Part shown: one piece after another, positions 2,184 to 34,791 of the stretch
Position numbering within the stretch: position 1 is the first letter of the stretch
How the letters are laid out: every line of letters starts with the position of its first letter
Source of the DNA: Gemmatimonadota bacterium
Lineage (GTDB): Bacteria; Gemmatimonadota; Gemmatimonadetes; Longimicrobiales; Gaopeijiaceae
DNA: 44,877 nucleotides
Assembly: GCA_007126575.1 (NCBI GenBank)
Contig: SLBA01000138.1
Span: 1-44,877, forward strand
Direction of reading: 5' to 3'
Notes under the pieces: generated by a model
The model's database searches: none
Told to the model about the DNA's origin: nothing
What the model saw: only the letters and a program-made list of their open reading frames with translations
Translations under genes and position numbers: made by a program

Positions 2184-4061
2184 TCACCAGAGGATCACCT
2201 GATCCACCCGGAGGTCGAAGGCCCCAACTGCAGGGCCCGCCGAGATCACGATCCCGATGATCTCCGTCGGGTCCGCAGAGGGGAAGGCCGACCAGGGCAG
2301 GAAGACCTCCGCCCACTCATCCCCCACCGAGAACGGCTGTGACATGGGAACGGCCCCTCCTCCCTGTGTGAAGACGAAGACCTGGAACCCCGGGCCCTCT
2401 CCCCGGGCCTGGAAGGAGATCCCCGAGGTGGCGGAGAGGTCGGCGGCGGCCATGGGCTGAGGCCCGGGAGAGAGCATGGCACCGGCCCAGGGGAAGGGGG
2501 CGCCCGTCATCAGTTCCCCGGTAATCCGGAGGGCGTGACTCGAGCCCCCCGCCCCGCCTTCCACCACCTCCATGGTGGCCGTGGACGCCCCCCCGGCCAT
2601 TGCGTCGGAGGTCTCGGACCAGCCGGCCCCGAACCCGGTGGTTGGGGTCCCATCGTCAAAGTCACTCACCGGAATCACTCCGTTCACCATCTCCGGGGCC
2701 GGTGCCGGTGCCGATGCCTCTTCCACCAGGGTCGCCACCCTCGTCCGGAGTCCTTCATGGTCGAAGGCATGGCCCTCCTTCCATACGCCCACGATTCGTC
2801 GGGTGGCGGCGATGTCCCGGGTGGGGTCCCCGTCCACCAGCACCAGGTCCGCACGGGAGCCGGCAGCGATCACTCCCCTGCCCTCCAGATCGAAGGCCCG
2901 GGCCGGGATCGAGGTGGCGCTCCGAAGAGCCTCGAGGGGAGTCAGCCCCATCTCCACAAGGAGCTCCAGTTCCCGGTGCACACTGGCCCCGTGGGTGGTG
3001 CCGGGGTTGGGCGCGTCGGAACCGGCCAGGATGCGGACGCCGGCTGCGTCGAGGGCCTCGATGCTCTCCCGGATCGCCTCCCAGGAGGTACCGGGCCCGG
3101 CAGGGAAGCTGGAGCCCAGCGACTGGCGGGCCGGGGGCGCGAGGAGCGCCCCCACGGCTGCGTCTTCGAGGAGTCCTCGACCGCTGGCCACCCCGCGGAC
3201 GCTTTCCAGGACCGTCAGGGTGGGGACGACGAACATCTCCCGCGCGGCCATCTTCTCCGAGAGCGCCGGGGAGGGTGCCCGGTCGACCCAGATGTGGACC
3301 AGCCCGTCGGCCCCGGCCTCGAGCGCCCGGACGGCATCCTCCAGGGTGGCGACGTGGACGACGGCCTTGAGTCCGTGTCGATGCGACGCGGTCACCAGGG
3401 CCTCGAGGGTGGCCTGGTCCAGTGTATTCATGGTCGTTCCGTGGGTGCTCCCGTCCTCCAGGACGATCTTCACGTGATCGGCTCCCTCCTCGTTGCGGGT
3501 GGCGACCCAGTCCGCCGCTCCGTCGGGAGACTCCAGGGTGGGCACCGGCATGCCGTACTGGGTCCCGTGTCCCCCGGGGGCGGTCGCGAGGTACCCGGCT
3601 CCTCGGATGTCGGCCCTGTGGGAGGCTCGGCCCGCGGCCTCCTCCGTCCTCCAGCCCGCCAGGAGTTCCGGCTGGGTGAACATGTCCAGGTTGAGAGTCA
3701 CCCCGAAGGCGAGGGACTGGACCAGGACGTCGGGATCGAAGGTGTGGACATGCGCATCGATGAAGCCGGGCATAAGGGTGTGATTCAGACCCTCGACCAC
3801 GGGCATTCCCGGCGGGATCTCGATCCCGGCCCCTGCGTTTACGACCCGTCCATCCTGGATCAACACGGTCGACCCCTCCGTCACCTCTCGACCATCGAAG
3901 AGCCGGACGCCCTGTATGGCGAAGGTCGAAGAGGGGAGGGTGTCCAGCACGACCGCGAACGGACGGGCCCCCTCGGTGGTCGGCGCGGGTCCCGAAGGCG
4001 CCAGAGCGAACAGTGCCAGGACGGCCAGATACATGGGGGTGAGAAGGCTTGGAAAGATCAC
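2184..4061 (-). CDS. Secreted amidohydrolase fused to a CIA30-like domain
   Basis: 625 aa from a GTG start at 4061 that overlaps the XRE gene stop (GTGA). A hydrophobic signal segment is at residues 10-25; an ATG at 4034 is an alternative start. Residues about 45-470 are a metal-dependent amidohydrolase of the imidazolonepropionase-like group: PGFIDAHVHTF (H104, H106), a HVKIVLEDG lysine, VVHVAT histidine, GLVHIW and the LAGSDAPNPG aspartate, then the closing GSRADLVLVDGDP strand. Residues about 475-625 form a second domain (VSDFDDGT, GISFQARGEG, WAEVFLPWSAF, GIVISAG, FDLRVDQVIL) resembling CIA30, a galactose-binding-type beta-sandwich. It probably hydrolyses an amide or cyclic bond outside the cytoplasm; the substrate is unknown. 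It is the last gene of the set starting at 4653. Confidence 0.85.
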   Translation of the reverse strand: MIFPSLLTPMYLAVLALFALAPSGPAPTTEGARPFAVVLDTLPSSTFAIQGVRLFDGREVTEGSTVLIQDGRVVNAGAGIEIPPGMPVVEGLNHTLMPGFIDAHVHTFDPDVLVQSLAFGVTLNLDMFTQPELLAGWRTEEAAGRASHRADIRGAGYLATAPGGHGTQYGMPVPTLESPDGAADWVATRNEEGADHVKIVLEDGSTHGTTMNTLDQATLEALVTASHRHGLKAVVHVATLEDAVRALEAGADGLVHIWVDRAPSPALSEKMAAREMFVVPTLTVLESVRGVASGRGLLEDAAVGALLAPPARQSLGSSFPAGPGTSWEAIRESIEALDAAGVRILAGSDAPNPGTTHGASVHRELELLVEMGLTPLEALRSATSIPARAFDLEGRGVIAAGSRADLVLVDGDPTRDIAATRRIVGVWKEGHAFDHEGLRTRVATLVEEASAPAPAPEMVNGVIPVSDFDDGTPTTGFGAGWSETSDAMAGGASTATMEVVEGGAGGSSHALRITGELMTGAPFPWAGAMLSPGPQPMAAADLSATSGISFQARGEGPGFQVFVFTQGGGAVPMSQPFSVGDEWAEVFLPWSAFPSADPTEIIGIVISAGPAVGAFDLRVDQVILW

Positions 4062-4258
4062 GTTTCCTCCGAATCCTCGAAGAGTTCCTCGATGGGCATC
4101 TGGAAGACCCGGGCGATCCGAAAGGCCAGTGGAAGGCTCGGGTCGTAGCGGTCGTTCTCGATCGAATTCACGGTCTGGCGGGAAACGTCCAGGCGGTCGG
4201 CCAGGTCCAGCTGGGACCACCCCCTTTGGCTACGTAGTTCCCGGAGCCGGTTCTTCAT
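4058..4258 (-). CDS. XRE/Cro-type DNA-binding protein
   Basis: 66 aa, almost only a helix-turn-helix domain. MKNRLRELRSQRGWSQLDLA leads into the recognition part DVSRQTVNSIEN, followed by RYDPSLPLAFRIARVFQ and a short acidic tail (EELFEDSEE). This is the compact class of one-domain XRE regulators that often sit beside a small membrane protein. Here the ATG at 4258 overlaps the stop of such a gene by ATGA, and its own stop overlaps the amidohydrolase start by GTGA. All three are therefore probably translated as a unit. I infer that it binds the inverted repeat in the promoter at 4683-4724 and represses its own operon. Confidence 0.9.
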   Translation of the reverse strand: MKNRLRELRSQRGWSQLDLADRLDVSRQTVNSIENDRYDPSLPLAFRIARVFQMPIEELFEDSEET

Positions 4259-4891: not shown

Positions 4892-5908
4892 TTACTGACC
4901 GGGGTCGGCCACGAGGAGGCGGAACTCGCCGCGGCGGTTCGCTGCATCGGCCCGCTCACCGGGCCCGTCGATCACGAGGTCGTTCTCGCCACGTGTGGCG
5001 ATCTGGATACGTGAAGCAGCGACGCCCTGCGAGACCAGATACGCCCTGGTCGCTTCGGCCCGTCGAAGACCCAGCGCCATGTTGTAGGCCTCTGTACCCG
5101 GCTGGCTGGCGTAGCCGGTGATGACGATCCGCATCTCCGGATCACTCCGGAAGATCGCGACCTTGCTGTTCAGGATGGCCCGGGCGGCACTGCTCAGTTC
5201 CGAGGAGTCGTGCTCGAAGTGGATCACTTCGGCCATCGTCGCCGCATCGGAACCCGCACGAGCGTTCGCGGCAAGCAGGGCTCGATGCTCGGCCTCGATG
5301 GCGCGGAGGCGAGCCGTTTCGGCCGCGCTGACGGAGTCGGGGCGCTGCGTGGTCAGAGCCGCGGCGGGTCCCGGCACGTCCCGGGTGACCACCTGAGTGG
5401 TGGTGGGTGAGTGGCGGTAGATGGCCAGACCCGCCTGGATGCTTCGGTTGCCCCCACCACCCATGGACATGCGGTCCTGAATGGCGTCCACGCGAAGCGC
5501 AAGGTTGTCGTTGAGATCGAACTTCGCCCCCACCAGCCCGTGGATTCCGTAGCTGAGATGGAAGTTCGTGTCGAAGTCGTTGACCCCGGCGCCGATGAGC
5601 AGCGACGTCCGTCCCATCTTGAGTGGGACCGCGGTGACGCGTGCGTGCACCATGCCCACGTTCACGTCCTGGAGGCCAAGCGTGCGGCTTGCGGTGCTGC
5701 CCAGGCCATCGAACTCGAGCGACAGCCAGGGCAGGACGAAGACTCCGACCCGGCCACCTGCACCGAAGCTGTTGTTCATGTTGAGGCTGTTATCGAAGGA
5801 GGTGCCGGAGGCGAATCCTCCGAACTCGATCGTCCCCCGTTCCTGTGCTGTTCCGGGCATGGCGACTGCCAGCGCCGCGGTTACAATCATGATGGATCTG
5901 ATAAACAT
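4892..5908 (-). CDS. OmpA-family outer membrane protein
   Basis: 338 aa. Residues 1-20 are a signal peptide (MFIRSIMIVTAALAVAMPGTAQ). Residues about 24-180 look like an eight-strand barrel: GTIEFGGFASG, FGAGGRVGVFVLPWLSLEFDG, VHARVTAVPLKMG, KFDLNDNLALRVDAI. An Ala-rich linker with coiled-coil character (SAAETARLRAIEAEHRALLAANARA) follows. Residues about 225-335 are the peptidoglycan-binding OmpA domain, with VIHFEHDSSELS, RIVITGYASQPGTEAYN, LRRAEATRAYL and a closing RRGEFRLL. It probably tethers the outer membrane to the cell wall. The start at 5908 is chosen because AAGGAG lies seven bases upstream and the signal peptide begins there; a longer open frame to 6022 lacks both. Confidence 0.9.
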   Translation of the reverse strand: MFIRSIMIVTAALAVAMPGTAQERGTIEFGGFASGTSFDNSLNMNNSFGAGGRVGVFVLPWLSLEFDGLGSTASRTLGLQDVNVGMVHARVTAVPLKMGRTSLLIGAGVNDFDTNFHLSYGIHGLVGAKFDLNDNLALRVDAIQDRMSMGGGGNRSIQAGLAIYRHSPTTTQVVTRDVPGPAAALTTQRPDSVSAAETARLRAIEAEHRALLAANARAGSDAATMAEVIHFEHDSSELSSAARAILNSKVAIFRSDPEMRIVITGYASQPGTEAYNMALGLRRAEATRAYLVSQGVAASRIQIATRGENDLVIDGPGERADAANRRGEFRLLVADPGQ

Positions 5909-5972
5909 CTCGAATCTCCTTGAGTTTTCATGACCTTGTGACCTGGCGGTTCGCATCTGCTGTCCGCCGGGT

Positions 5973-6011
5973 GCGGGTCCGGCATTATGAAAGGTGTCGG
6001 ACCCGCTTTTT
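5973..6011 (+). terminator. Intrinsic terminator on the plus strand with no plus-strand gene before it
   Basis: GCGGGTCCG (5973-5981) pairs perfectly with CGGACCCGC (5998-6006). The stem extends to about 14 bp through further pairs including G-U wobbles, leaving the loop ATGAAA (5987-5992), and TTTTT follows at 6007-6011. The wobbles become C-A mismatches on the minus strand, so the structure is built for a plus-strand RNA. Both flanking genes run on the minus strand. The transcript it ends would be antisense to the ompA leader or an unannotated small RNA. Confidence 0.6.
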
Positions 6012-6025
6012 CCGTTACACATTGA

Positions 6026-6042
6026 GGAGGTCAGCGACCTCC
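6026..6042 (-). terminator. Hairpin just after the Ig-repeat lipoprotein gene
   Basis: GGAGGTC (6026-6032), three-base loop, GACCTCC (6036-6042): a perfect 7-bp stem starting 11 bases past the stop codon at 6053-6055. There is no T-run after it on the minus strand. It may mark the 3' end of the lipoprotein mRNA. Termination activity is uncertain. Confidence 0.35.
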
Positions 6043-6052
6043 AGCCTCATCT

Positions 6053-8371
6053 TCATGGGGTACAGTCCGTGACCGTCGTTTCGGTGACCGTCAGGTCGCG
6101 CTGCGACCATGCGTTCCCGTCGAACGCTCCCCGGGTGAAGGTGACGTCCGACGCGCTCGGACCCGCAAGGACAATTCCCTTGAGGGTGGAGTCGGTCATC
6201 GCCACACCGTCCCGGACCCACCAGGTCACGTTACACGCCTGCGCCCCGCCAGCCATGACCACGTCAAAGGAGCTGCCCGTGAGTGCACCGGTTCCGGTAG
6301 TGCCGATCTTGAAGAGCCAGGTGTCGGTTTCCCCTCCGTTCAGCGTAAGCAGCCCCGTGAGGGTCGCTGCGGAGTCGAAGCAGTAGACGCCGGGATCGAG
6401 GCTTTGACCCGCGAGGGTGCCGGTCAGCACCTCGTCACACGCGACCGGTTGCAGAGCCGCATACAGGTCGGAGAACTCGTCATATGCGGCAAGGGCCTCC
6501 GAAGTCGCTTCATGCAGGTCCCCCGTGAGGTCGCACGATGAATCGGTGAAGCTCCCCGAGGACGCTGCGAAGCCCACGTCTCCGGTGATGGCCCCTTCGG
6601 TACAACTCAGATCATTCAGGGTCAGCAGTCGGAAGTTCGCCGGCGCCGGCGGTGAGGCGTTCACTTCGACCGTCGCGGTCCCCGAAATGCTGCCGCTGGT
6701 CGCCGTGACCGTATGGTTGAAGGTTCCCGTCGTCGTCCCGGCGGTGAACACTCCGGTCGCGGAATCGATCTCACCCCCGCCATTCTCGACCGACCATACG
6801 GGTGTGATCGAAATCGGATTGCCACTCCCATCCTCGGCGGTCGCGGTGAACTGCTGGGTGTTTCCTACTTCAACCGTGGCCGGGTCCGGCGAGACGGTGA
6901 TCACCGCAGCCGAACCACTGGTCACGGTGACGGTCGCGGAGCCGAATACACCACCGCTCGTGGCCCTGACGGTGTTGGTGAAGGTCCCGGTCGTGGCTCC
7001 GGCGGTGAACACCCCGGTCGAGGCGTTGATCGTGCCGCCGCCATCCTCGACCGACCACACGGGCGTGATAGAAACCGAATTTCCATTCGCATCCACGGCC
7101 GCGGCAGTGAACTGCTGTGTCCCGTTGCTACCCACCGTGGCCGGATTCGGGGTGACGGTGATGACCGCAGCCGAGCCGCCCGTCACATTGACGGTCGCGG
7201 AGCCGGACACGCCACCACTCGTGGCCCTGACCGTGTTGGTGAAGCTGCCCGTCGTGGTTCCGGCGGTGAACATTCCACTCGAGGCGTTGATCGTGCCGCC
7301 GCCATTCTCGACCGACCACGCGGGGCTGATCGAAGCGGGATTGCCAGCCGCGTCGACGGCCGTGGCGGTGAACTGCTGCGTTCCGTTGGTGCCGATCGTC
7401 GCCGGGTTCGGGGTCACCGCGATGGCGACGGCCGGACCGGCCATTACCGTGACGGTTGCAGATCCAGAGAGACTACCGCTCGTGGCCCGAACCGTGTTGT
7501 TGAAGGTGCCCAGACTGGTTCCGCCGGTGAACACCCCGGTCGAGGCGTTGATCGTGCCACCGCCGCTCACCACGGACCAGGTGGCCGTGACCGGAACGAC
7601 GTTCCCCGACGCATCCACGGCTGTGGCCGTGAACTGCTGAGTCCCGTTGATGGGCATGAAGTGCGGGTTCGGGGAAACCGTCAGGGTGGCGGCCGGGCCG
7701 GGCACGACCGTGACCGTCGCGAATCCCGAAAGGCTGCCGCTCGACGCCTGCACGGTGTTGGTGAAGGTGCCTGCCGTCGTCCCGGCGGTGAACGCCCCCG
7801 ATCCGGAGTTGATCTGTCCTCCACCGTTCACGATGGCCCATGTGGGCGTGACGGGAACGGGATTGCCTCCCGCATCCACGGCTGTGGCGGTGAATTGCCG
7901 GGTGACGCCGATCCCCAGGGTGTCCGGGTTCGGGGTGACCACGATCGCGGCGGCCGGCCCGGCGATGATGGTGAACGAGGCGAAGGCCTCCCTGCCCCCA
8001 TGGCTCACCCGGACCGTGTTCGTATAGGTGCCGAGCTCGGTTCCCGCCCGGAAGAATCCTGCATCGTCGACCGTGCCTCCACCGTTCACCATCTCCCAGA
8101 GGGCGGAAGAGGTTGCACCGGGTCCACTGATGATGATCTCTCTTCCATCAGCGTCGAAGGCCCGAGCGGTGAGCTGCTGGGTGCCATGGATCGCCATGGT
8201 GGTCTGGTTGGGGGTCAGGGTGAGGCTGGCGATCGCACCGGGACCAACGGGCGAATGCACATCACAGGCTACGGATGTCAGGGTCACAAGTGCCGCCGCG
8301 ACGATCCACCGGATGGCCGGGAAAGGGGGACGCAGCGCTCGTCGCGTGCGTTTCATCGTTGGGATCTTCAC
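6053..8371 (-). CDS. Ig-repeat lipoprotein with C-terminal ice-binding-type (DUF3494) domain
   Basis: 772 aa. Start is GTG at 8371, with AGGAG seven bases upstream. The signal segment ends in a lipobox LTSVAC with C36, so the protein is probably lipid-anchored. Six Ig-like beta-sandwich repeats fill residues about 47-572. Each contains a V-T-P-N-P strand, GTQQFTATAVDAxGN, W-S-V-x-N-G-G-G and FTAGTTxGTFTNTVRATSG; repeats 2 to 6 are exactly 87 residues apart. Residues about 578-770 match the ice-binding-like DUF3494 fold: NFRLLTLNDLSC, GAITGDVG, GDLHEATSEALAAY, LDPGVYCFDSAATLTG, TWLFKIGTTGTGALTG, NVTWWVRDGVAM, FKGI-like LKGIVLAG. The repeats would hold the end domain away from the cell. It may be an adhesin that binds ice or another crystalline or polymer surface; ice binding itself is not shown. 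Confidence 0.85.
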   Translation of the reverse strand: MKIPTMKRTRRALRPPFPAIRWIVAAALVTLTSVACDVHSPVGPGAIASLTLTPNQTTMAIHGTQQLTARAFDADGREIIISGPGATSSALWEMVNGGGTVDDAGFFRAGTELGTYTNTVRVSHGGREAFASFTIIAGPAAAIVVTPNPDTLGIGVTRQFTATAVDAGGNPVPVTPTWAIVNGGGQINSGSGAFTAGTTAGTFTNTVQASSGSLSGFATVTVVPGPAATLTVSPNPHFMPINGTQQFTATAVDASGNVVPVTATWSVVSGGGTINASTGVFTGGTSLGTFNNTVRATSGSLSGSATVTVMAGPAVAIAVTPNPATIGTNGTQQFTATAVDAAGNPASISPAWSVENGGGTINASSGMFTAGTTTGSFTNTVRATSGGVSGSATVNVTGGSAAVITVTPNPATVGSNGTQQFTAAAVDANGNSVSITPVWSVEDGGGTINASTGVFTAGATTGTFTNTVRATSGGVFGSATVTVTSGSAAVITVSPDPATVEVGNTQQFTATAEDGSGNPISITPVWSVENGGGEIDSATGVFTAGTTTGTFNHTVTATSGSISGTATVEVNASPPAPANFRLLTLNDLSCTEGAITGDVGFAASSGSFTDSSCDLTGDLHEATSEALAAYDEFSDLYAALQPVACDEVLTGTLAGQSLDPGVYCFDSAATLTGLLTLNGGETDTWLFKIGTTGTGALTGSSFDVVMAGGAQACNVTWWVRDGVAMTDSTLKGIVLAGPSASDVTFTRGAFDGNAWSQRDLTVTETTVTDCTP
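6656..8233 (-). repeat. Six tandem Ig-domain repeats, 261-bp period
   Basis: The conserved VTPNP/VSPNP strand recurs at residues 53, 146, 233, 320, 407 and 494. The last five intervals are constant at 87 codons apart from the first at 93, and long stretches are nearly identical at DNA level. Repeat 1 is the most diverged, which suggests stepwise internal duplication of the later units. Confidence 0.85.
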
Positions 8372-8709: not shown

Positions 8710-9057
8710 TCAGGGGTCTGCCGGTTCGGCCCCGTCTCGGATCGGCATCGGAACGGAGATCTGGAACCTGATCCCCAGCGCCCTCAGACTGGCCTCGAGG
8801 CGTTGGTTCGACTCGAGGCTCGCCTCGGGGCTGGAGGTTACGACCATGACGTGGGTCACCTGTGGCTCCGCAACCAGGCGGGTCGTCCAGTTCCGGCCTT
8901 CCTCGTCGGCTTCTCTGCTCTCCCGAGCCAGGAGATCGCGGATCGCAGCCATGCGATGCTCCGGGTGTGGCGGGGTCATCTCGTAGCCATAGAGCCAGAG
9001 GGCACTCCCACCGAATGGCGCTGCGGTTCGGGCATCGGCTTTCCGGTCCTTCATCAT
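8710..9057 (-). CDS. Conserved-looking protein of unknown function
   Basis: 115 aa, soluble, no signal peptide. The clearest segments are ALWLYGYEMTPPHPEHRMAAI, a charged helix RDLLARESREADEEGRNW, a VTHVMVVTSSPEASLESNQRLEASL stretch and the strand GIRFQISVPM. An alpha/beta fold like a small sensor or receiver-type domain is possible, but I recognise no family. The start is placed at the ATG pair 9057/9054, where GGGAG lies four to seven bases upstream; the frame stays open to 9216, but that extension is low-complexity. It precedes the orphan response regulator's stop by about 190 bases on the same strand, so the two could be functionally linked. Confidence 0.55.
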   Translation of the reverse strand: MMKDRKADARTAAPFGGSALWLYGYEMTPPHPEHRMAAIRDLLARESREADEEGRNWTTRLVAEPQVTHVMVVTSSPEASLESNQRLEASLRALGIRFQISVPMPIRDGAEPADP

Positions 9058-9249
9058 GGCGCTCCCAGGCGGGCTCGAAGATTCACATGCTGGCGGGTCC
9101 TGCTTCGTGGCTCTCGGGTCTCCGCGACGGGGACCGGCTCTCATGTTGGGTACGGGAGCACTCGCACAGGCATGCACGGACTCTAGTGGAACCCCCGGGG
9201 GGTAGCCATCCCACAAATGGGTGGGGGGACCGGCAGGAGAGGGGTAGCC

Positions 9250-9900
9250 CTACTCGGTTTCTTCCTCGGCACCCTTGTGAAGGTACGCGGCGATCTGCAG
9301 GCGGCTGTGGAGCGCCAGTTTGTCCATCACGTTGCGGACGTGGCTCTTCACCGTATTCGGAGAGATCTCGAGGGATTTCGCGATGGCCTTGTTGCTCATC
9401 CCTTCGCCGATCAGGCCGACCACCTTGCGTTCCCGGGGGGTCAGATCGGTGGCCTCGCCGACCTCGTCCGCACCTCGCAGGACCGCTTCCTGCACGATCT
9501 GGGAGAACAGGGTCGAGGCCATCTCGGGAGGGAGAATGGTCCGTCCACCGGCCACCGACCGGATCGTGGCGAGGAGGTCTTCAAGGGTGGCGTCCTTCAG
9601 GACGAAGCCGGCGACGCCCGCGGTAACGAACTCGACCAGCTCCTCATGGACCGGGAGCAGGTCCATCACGATCACCTGGGTTTCCGGGAGCCCGTCTCGA
9701 ACCCGCTCGGCCAGTTCCAGGCTGTCCACACCTTCCAGGCCGGCGTCCAGAAGGAGGACCCGGGGGGCTGCTTCCCTCAGGGCGTCGATACTTCCACTCG
9801 CGGCAGAGTAGGTGACCTGGAACCCCGCCTGCTCGTTCAGCTTGAGGGTGAGCCCCTCACGCACGAGGCGGTTGTCCTCGATAATTGCGATCTGGATCAT
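9250..9900 (-). CDS. LuxR-type response regulator (orphan)
   Basis: 216 aa. Receiver domain 1-120: acidic pair E8-D9 in IIEDNRLVREGL, phospho-acceptor D52 in VLLLDAGLEG, and the conserved lysine in GFVLKDA. The usual Thr/Ser switch after the fourth strand is replaced by Asp in QVIVMDLLP, so signalling may be atypical. Residues about 150-210 are a LuxR/GerE helix-turn-helix: LTPRERKVVGLIGEGMSNKAIA, then ISPNTVKSHVRNVMDKL. It would bind DNA and control transcription in reply to a histidine kinase, but no kinase gene is in the window. Start ATG at 9900 has GGGAG six bases upstream. Confidence 0.88.
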   Translation of the reverse strand: MIQIAIIEDNRLVREGLTLKLNEQAGFQVTYSAASGSIDALREAAPRVLLLDAGLEGVDSLELAERVRDGLPETQVIVMDLLPVHEELVEFVTAGVAGFVLKDATLEDLLATIRSVAGGRTILPPEMASTLFSQIVQEAVLRGADEVGEATDLTPRERKVVGLIGEGMSNKAIAKSLEISPNTVKSHVRNVMDKLALHSRLQIAAYLHKGAEEETE

Positions 9901-34644: not shown

Positions 34645-34679
34645 GGGGTTCGGGGTTCGGGATTCGGGATTCGGGATCC
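34645..34679. repeat. Five tandem 7-base repeats, GGG(A/G)TTC, upstream of phosphofructokinase
   Basis: Units at 34645, 34652, 34659, 34666 and 34673: GGGGTTC twice, GGGATTC twice, GGGATCC once, followed by a G-rich run to about 34696. The array lies in the 164-base divergent gap between pfkA and the DUF59 gene, about 18 bases from the pfkA start, in the leader or promoter zone. Copy number could vary. Confidence 0.85.
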
Positions 34680-34791
34680 GGGGGCGGGGGGCCGGAACGT
34701 GCGCATCGCCCGAGGTTACATTGAGATCCGGGCGAAGGCGAGTTTCCCGCCCGAGCTCCCTGCCTCAAACCCTCGAGGGCAAGCAAAGATC

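Follow-up and report, generated by a model that had tools for sequence, protein, structure and literature searches.

What does an ice-binding-type domain do at the end of a lipid-anchored stalk of Ig-like repeats, and does such a protein act alone? We addressed this question for a single DUF3494 gene in a 44,877-nucleotide stretch of Gemmatimonadota DNA (contig SLBA01000138.1, positions 1 to 44,877; hereafter, the window). Drawing on domain order, the lipobox pattern, modeled folds, a conserved gene pair, variable stalk length, and an exchange of tips, we slightly favor the reading that the gene encodes an exported lipoprotein with a DUF3494 tip on a six-Ig rod, and that this protein contributes the tip to a module conserved in Gemmatimonadota and made up of a stalked lipoprotein, an OmpA-family protein, and often a NarL-type regulator. 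The features of the locus are collected in Table 1.

Table 1. Coordinates of the stalked DUF3494 gene, its parts, and its neighbors in the window.
Feature	Coordinates	Strand	Basis or remark
OmpA-family partner: beta-barrel domain and OmpA C-terminal domain, directly downstream of the stalked gene	4892..5908	-	Pfam
14-pair inverted repeat within the 144-nt gap (5909-6052) between the stalked and OmpA-family genes	5973..6006	.	
Stalked DUF3494 lipoprotein gene, 772 aa	6053..8371	-	GTG start, AGGAG seven bases 5'
DUF3494 beta-solenoid tip with a short Pro-rich hinge before it, residues 573-772	6056..6655	-	Pfam profile and AlphaFold model
Asp759, presumed b-face column 2, row r5	6095..6097	-	
Asp742, presumed b-face column 2, row r4	6146..6148	-	
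Asp587, presumed b-face column 2, row r6	6611..6613	-	
Five Ig-like units, each exactly 87 residues, residues 138-572	6656..7960	-	Last unit: fold match
First Ig-like unit, divergent, residues 45-137 (93 aa)	7961..8239	-	
Signal peptide with presumed lipobox LTSVAC, residues 1-36, Cys36; then a DVH motif common to many stalked relatives	8264..8371	-	Lipobox pattern
Small conserved ORF, 168 aa, without Pfam match, between the regulator and the stalked gene	8710..9216	-	
NarL/FixJ-type response regulator, receiver and LuxR-type HTH; linked to stalked genes in relatives	9250..9900	-	

The stalked gene is the sole PF11999 (Ice_binding) match in its genome, and the Pfam profile covers residues 589–768 at 79.2 bits, against a cut-off of 28.7. 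Near the N-terminus, a basic and hydrophobic stretch precedes LTSVAC, which we take to be a lipobox by its fit to the usual pattern; this supports the lipid-anchor signal put forward in the preliminary description. A Pfam search with E-values up to 1 returned PF11999, Big_1, and HYR only, with no match to an RTX-type or type I secretion end. The NCBIfam model invert_tail (NF058595), which describes an anchoring domain at the C-terminus, scored 47.3 bits against a threshold of 37, with its best stretch spanning only profile positions 73–111 of 113 and lying within the Ig repeats, away from the C-terminus.

The open reading frame had been described as holding six Ig domains, five of them with an exact 87-residue period, and this was confirmed in three ways. 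The units are spaced by 93, 87, 87, 87, and 87 residues; Tandem Repeats Finder independently reported a 261-bp period (scores 996 and 987); and a full-length AlphaFold model shows six sandwiches in line (mean pLDDT 84.8, pTM 0.37, a value at which the relative placement of the domains is not fixed). Because the Big_1 score of the Ig units (24.8 bits) misses the Pfam cut-off of 34.9, the Ig label rests on fold. A separate model that covers the tip and the last Ig unit, with 47 sequences as input, reached a mean pLDDT of 95.1. In the structural comparisons, the last Ig unit matched Leptospira LigA (8gyr; Z 12.8, 1.7 Å over 85 residues), and the tip, predicted to be a beta-solenoid with one long helix (residues 624–640), matched AnpIBP (7bwy; Z 28.8, 1.5 Å over 188 residues). 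Z scores of the tip against AnpIBP, FfIBP (4nu2), IBPv (5uyt), and SfIBP_1 (6bg8) ranged from 24.8 to 28.8, in agreement with Foldseek. Both the Ig stalk and the DUF3494 tip are thus borne out by the predicted folds.

It had also been suggested that near-identical DNA repeats allow stalk length to vary between strains by recombination. The repeats are not near-identical: units 2–6 share 62–81% DNA identity with each other, unit 1 shares only 41–45% with the others, and no exact match between two units is longer than 34 bp. Variable length itself stands, since the stalk of a congener (G001, same genus) has five units and the range across the class is one to eight. Units 1, 2, 3, and 5 of G001 are 89–90% identical as DNA to window units 1, 2, 3, and 6, respectively; its fourth unit is 82% and 77% identical to the fourth and fifth units of the window. 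The congeners thus differ by the gain or loss of one internal unit. We rejected the possibility that the fourth G001 unit is a hybrid of window units 4 and 5 because the best split gains only 0.011 in identity, and we likewise discarded easy copy-number change within a strain, for which the units have diverged too far. Stalk length changes between species (five units in G001, six in the window), yet not through near-identical repeats.

The gene next to the stalked gene proved to be its most constant companion. Its product matched PF00691 at 65.2 bits (cut-off 27.2), with an OMP_b-brl match of 25.0 bits that falls under the cut-off of 28.7. An OmpA-family gene was present in all nine order-level DUF3494 genomes compared, each time sharing a contig with the DUF3494 gene (for G001, the contig bearing the end of the tip gene). 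The best match to the window partner adjoins the DUF3494 gene in the six closest genomes, namely G000, G001, G011, G017, and G019 (E < 1e-75) and G043 (a weaker barrel match). For G036, G044, and G046, the neighbor of the DUF3494 gene is not the best match but a weaker OmpA-family match, confirmed by Pfam in G036 and G046. A genome of the same genus that lacks a DUF3494 match (G002) has distant OmpA matches only.

Across the class, a scripted survey found an OmpA-family or barrel domain downstream on the same strand in 23 of 31 rows with a stalk versus 2 of 23 without (Fisher p 1.4e-6, which overstates the case because related sequences are not independent); the stalkless rows include two entries for one frame-broken gene, L019. 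With G001 and L139 added by hand, 25 of 32 stalked genes have an OmpA-family gene after them; the G001 partner starts 27 nt past the stop codon and the L139 barrel runs off its contig. The remaining seven stalked places (L136, L137, L138, L164, L165, L167, and L171) had no OmpA-family gene, and the scripted count excluded five rows with a truncated downstream end or one shorter than 700 bases (L053, L060, L160, L169, and L177). The stalked gene of G001 is itself split over two contigs (L052 and L053), and its last 38 codons share a contig with the OmpA-family gene. When the barrel is taken as the starting point, a DUF3494 gene adjoins 17 of its 19 best matches (E < 1e-34); the exceptions, G254 and G398:C290, have no DUF3494 gene alongside and a response regulator nearby instead. 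Among the weaker barrel matches, 14 regions were inspected, none with a tip or an Ig stalk; the upstream side was readable in 11 of them because three barrels (G175:C8, G175:C34, and G368:C11) sit at a contig end.

We noted a further association at the mature N-terminus of the lipoprotein. Among 25 stalked proteins with a lipobox candidate, 15 begin with CDVH, five with CEH, and two with CKDA, the other three being different or unresolved. The stalkless L133 also reads CDVH, with a close barrel next door, and the close barrel type adjoins all 16 CDVH proteins. This association may reflect shared descent or be a sign of contact. CDVH did not emerge as a general lipoprotein signal, in that none of its six other DNA matches in the genome is preceded by a signal peptide. 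RcsF threading through OmpA offers a model for a lipoprotein that passes through its partner barrel, but we rejected such threading here because only about eight residues lie between the lipid-bearing Cys and the first Ig unit. In the OmpA C-terminal domain, most relatives have a loop with the motif G[HYN]TD, which is replaced by GYAS in the window partner and those of G001 and G011 and by GFAS in G017 and G173:C5. The conserved Asp of this motif, presumably peptidoglycan-binding, is thus missing from these proteins. The inverted repeat between the two genes occurs once in the genome and is absent from the congener, where the gap is 27 nt. It was rejected as a terminator of the stalked gene, given that absence and a T-run on the other strand.

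Counting the window, 17 of the 32 stalked places have the response regulator alongside, with gene order and orientation not always the same; loci with stalkless tips only never have it as a neighbor. In G019 and G173:C59 it lies on the same contig, slightly farther away. This link is weaker than that to the OmpA-family gene because the same genome has three close regulator paralogues (53–56%). None of the paralogue loci (L190–L197, in G000 and relatives) has a second stalked DUF3494 gene. Homologues of the small ORF adjoin NarL-type regulators in several relatives, and also at paralogous places in the same genome. The reading of the G011 regulator (L056, about 1154–1809) changes frame at 1492, which may be a frameshift or an assembly error. 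Elsewhere in the window we noted a gene for an amidohydrolase with a C-terminal CIA30-type domain (2184–4220, minus strand) and five copies of a 7-base unit, GGGATTC (34645–34682).

Of 154 genomes in the order, 10 have a PF11999 match above the cut-off, and a query with the window tip found matches in 41 of 395 genomes sampled within the phylum; some of the 58 tip matches were not taken as separate loci and some are covered by a neighboring region. Trees of the OmpA-family partner and of the lipobox plus first unit both grouped the window, G001, and G011, with a support of 100/100. In the tip tree, the clade of the window and G001 also takes in G043, G225, tips of stalkless Gemmatimonadota proteins, and two proteins recorded under Pseudomonadota; the G011 tip lay apart from them among the classical ones. 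A branch of 0.66 leads to the pair of window and G001, whose composition is odd. A tree constrained to unite the three tips is worse by 135.9 log-likelihood units (AU p 1.3e-46). Because the trees of the stalk start and the OmpA-family partner place the window with G011 and the tip tree does not, we conclude that the tip was exchanged while stalk and partner were conserved. At two loci (L126 and L066), a stalkless DUF3494 gene stands directly upstream of the stalked one, which would give a second tip nearby. A 2003-residue protein of G272 (L134:2087–8095, minus strand) has twelve Big_1 stretches and a weak BLAST match to the window tip that Pfam did not confirm.

We then considered the surface with which the tip would meet ice. 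The b-face of DUF3494 proteins has two outward columns, one mostly Ala or Ser and the other mostly Thr, as set out for 50,669 sequences in the accessible part of PMC12337378. Positions in our tips were placed by strand pattern and the table in that source, without coordinates, and their outward orientation is thus inferred. So placed, column 4 of the window tip, read from row r6 to row r1, is S, T, T, A, T, T and fits a regular Thr/Ser face, whereas column 2 is D, D, D, G, A, A and does not fit the small-residue pattern. With three acidic residues at 12 face positions, the window tip reaches the highest count in a set of 47 tips, and 33 of these lack acidic residues there altogether. The congener G001 is acidic at the same three positions (E, D, D), which are mostly Ala, Ser, or Gly in relatives and in solved active proteins. 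In the alignments, row r5 is Ala in FfIBP, 5b5h, and IBPv versus Asp759 in the window, and an Asp at this row recurs in six further tips of the clade to which the window tip belongs. The same clade includes the stalkless L018, with Ala at all six column-2 and Thr at all six column-4 positions.

The window tip thus stems from a clade that includes very regular faces and has departed from them, and this departure makes ice a weaker candidate without eliminating it. Whereas the family and fold of what had been called an ice-binding-type tip stand, the step from there to ice binding is weakened by Asp587, Asp742, and Asp759 on the presumed b-face. Since that face has turned acidic, ice binding by the window tip is doubtful, and on sequence grounds we put its chances at about even; ice is the leading ligand for the DUF3494 family overall. 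Altogether, the anchor signal, the Ig stalk, the DUF3494 tip, and the variable length survive from the preliminary description, while easy recombination and the ice inference are weakened; the OmpA-family gene, the response regulator, and the exchange of tips had been missed.

How might the parts work together? We propose that the response regulator would switch on the pair of stalked and OmpA-family genes, which may be transcribed together, as the 27-nt gap in G001 suggests. The lipoprotein would be lipid-anchored and reach the cell surface, the OmpA-family protein would help to anchor or display it, and the tip would then stick to a solid or crystalline surface. In E. coli, an Asp after the lipid-bearing Cys is the rule for retention at the inner membrane, which may not be the rule in this phylum. 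The Asp at this position in the window protein counts against surface display because the E. coli rule would keep the lipoprotein at the inner membrane.

Two other accounts of the tip deserve attention. It may simply bind ice as the solved DUF3494 proteins do, with the stalk keeping the cell near ice or controlling ice at the cell surface and with the neighboring genes incidental. The tip fold is close to those of proven ice-binding proteins, very regular faces such as that of L018 occur in its clade, several named relatives come from records titled palsa and Baikal-deep, and Ig-bearing DUF3494 proteins have been interpreted as tethers in the part of PMC9957290 that we could draw on. Such an ice adhesin has to contend, however, with a column 2 that gives the window face the highest acidic count among the 47 tips, with the matching residues of the congener, and with the long branch to the pair, and it leaves the conserved gene pair without explanation; we therefore consider it possible but unlikely. 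Alternatively, the solenoid may have lost ice binding after its transfer onto the stalk, such that the acidic face now binds another repetitive surface, for example a mineral or a polysaccharide. Three Asp residues in one presumed column, acidity in the congener too, and the long branch and odd composition of the pair all point in this direction, and the DUF3494 family is said to include substrate-binding proteins (PMC12337378, in the portion available). The outward orientation of these Asp residues is nevertheless drawn from strand pattern and a published table, and the one in row r5, being shared with the six further clade tips, is not special. The record of the congener carries the prefix LCM1, as in a Thioalkalivibrio genome, which may mean a soda-lake mat ("LCM" is absent from the text of PMC6748926); those soda lakes, however, are poor in soluble calcium and magnesium according to the accessible text of the same paper. 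A repurposed tip is accordingly a tentative proposal that we would not bet on.

A more elaborate scheme, in which the regulator controls the operon, the OmpA-family protein anchors or displays a rod of variable length, the DUF3494 tips are exchangeable, and the acidic tip of this genus binds a ligand other than ice, would make the locus a regulated three-part adhesin; taken with all its parts, we find it improbable. A structural role in the periplasm or at the inner membrane, where the DUF3494 and OmpA-type domains would serve envelope integrity and not adhesion, would suit the Asp after the lipid-bearing Cys and the neighbor with its peptidoglycan-binding-type domain, but we regard it as very improbable given that a stalk of one to eight units is unlike a fixed periplasmic span and that the tip is the exchanged part, as in adhesins.

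The favored reading, a tip-bearing lipoprotein within a conserved module, bears on several wider questions. How diderm cells display lipid-anchored ice-binding-type stalks is not worked out in the papers that we found, and the conserved OmpA-family partner is a concrete candidate. The exchange of tips provides natural pairs, such as the window and G011, that differ only at the ligand-binding end. Within a single tip clade, the face has passed from regular to acidic; this makes the point at which DUF3494 stops binding ice testable, and it cautions against naming every DUF3494 protein an ice-binding protein. A linkage of DUF3494 with an OmpA-family gene and a response regulator was not found in the literature searched, from which subscription papers were mostly out of reach, so that its absence is unproven.

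Compared with known systems, the layout is adhesin-like and known in kind. The ice-binding adhesin of Marinomonas primoryensis (MpAFP/MpIBP), with about 120 repeats of 104 residues and a mass of 1.5 MDa, resembles the window protein in that Ig-like repeats carry an ice-binding(-type) domain (PMC4083281 and PMC5014055, in the parts available). It differs in its ice-binding domain, which is unrelated, and in its RTX features, in place of which the window protein has an N-terminal lipobox. The Ig-like units of Leptospira LigA/LigB (8gyr, 2mog) have a matching fold, and LigA is matched by sequence too, but these proteins lack a DUF3494 tip. Nearer in layout are DUF3494 proteins from Arctic sea ice, which combine a single DUF3494 domain with up to seven BIg domains and for which domain shuffling has been suggested and an adhesin role discussed (PMC9957290). 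They share with the window protein one DUF3494 domain and repeated Ig-like domains; the available sections of that account make no mention of lipoproteins, of an OmpA-family partner, or of Gemmatimonadota. AnpIBP, FfIBP, IBPv, and SfIBP_1 belong to the same Pfam family and have the same fold as the window tip, which is set apart from them by its acidic presumed face, by the extra Cys pair of its clade (C713 and C770), and by its place at the end of a six-Ig lipoprotein stalk. Against this background, what is new at this locus is the linkage of stalk, OmpA-family gene, and regulator, the exchange of tips on a conserved stalk, and the acidic presumed face.
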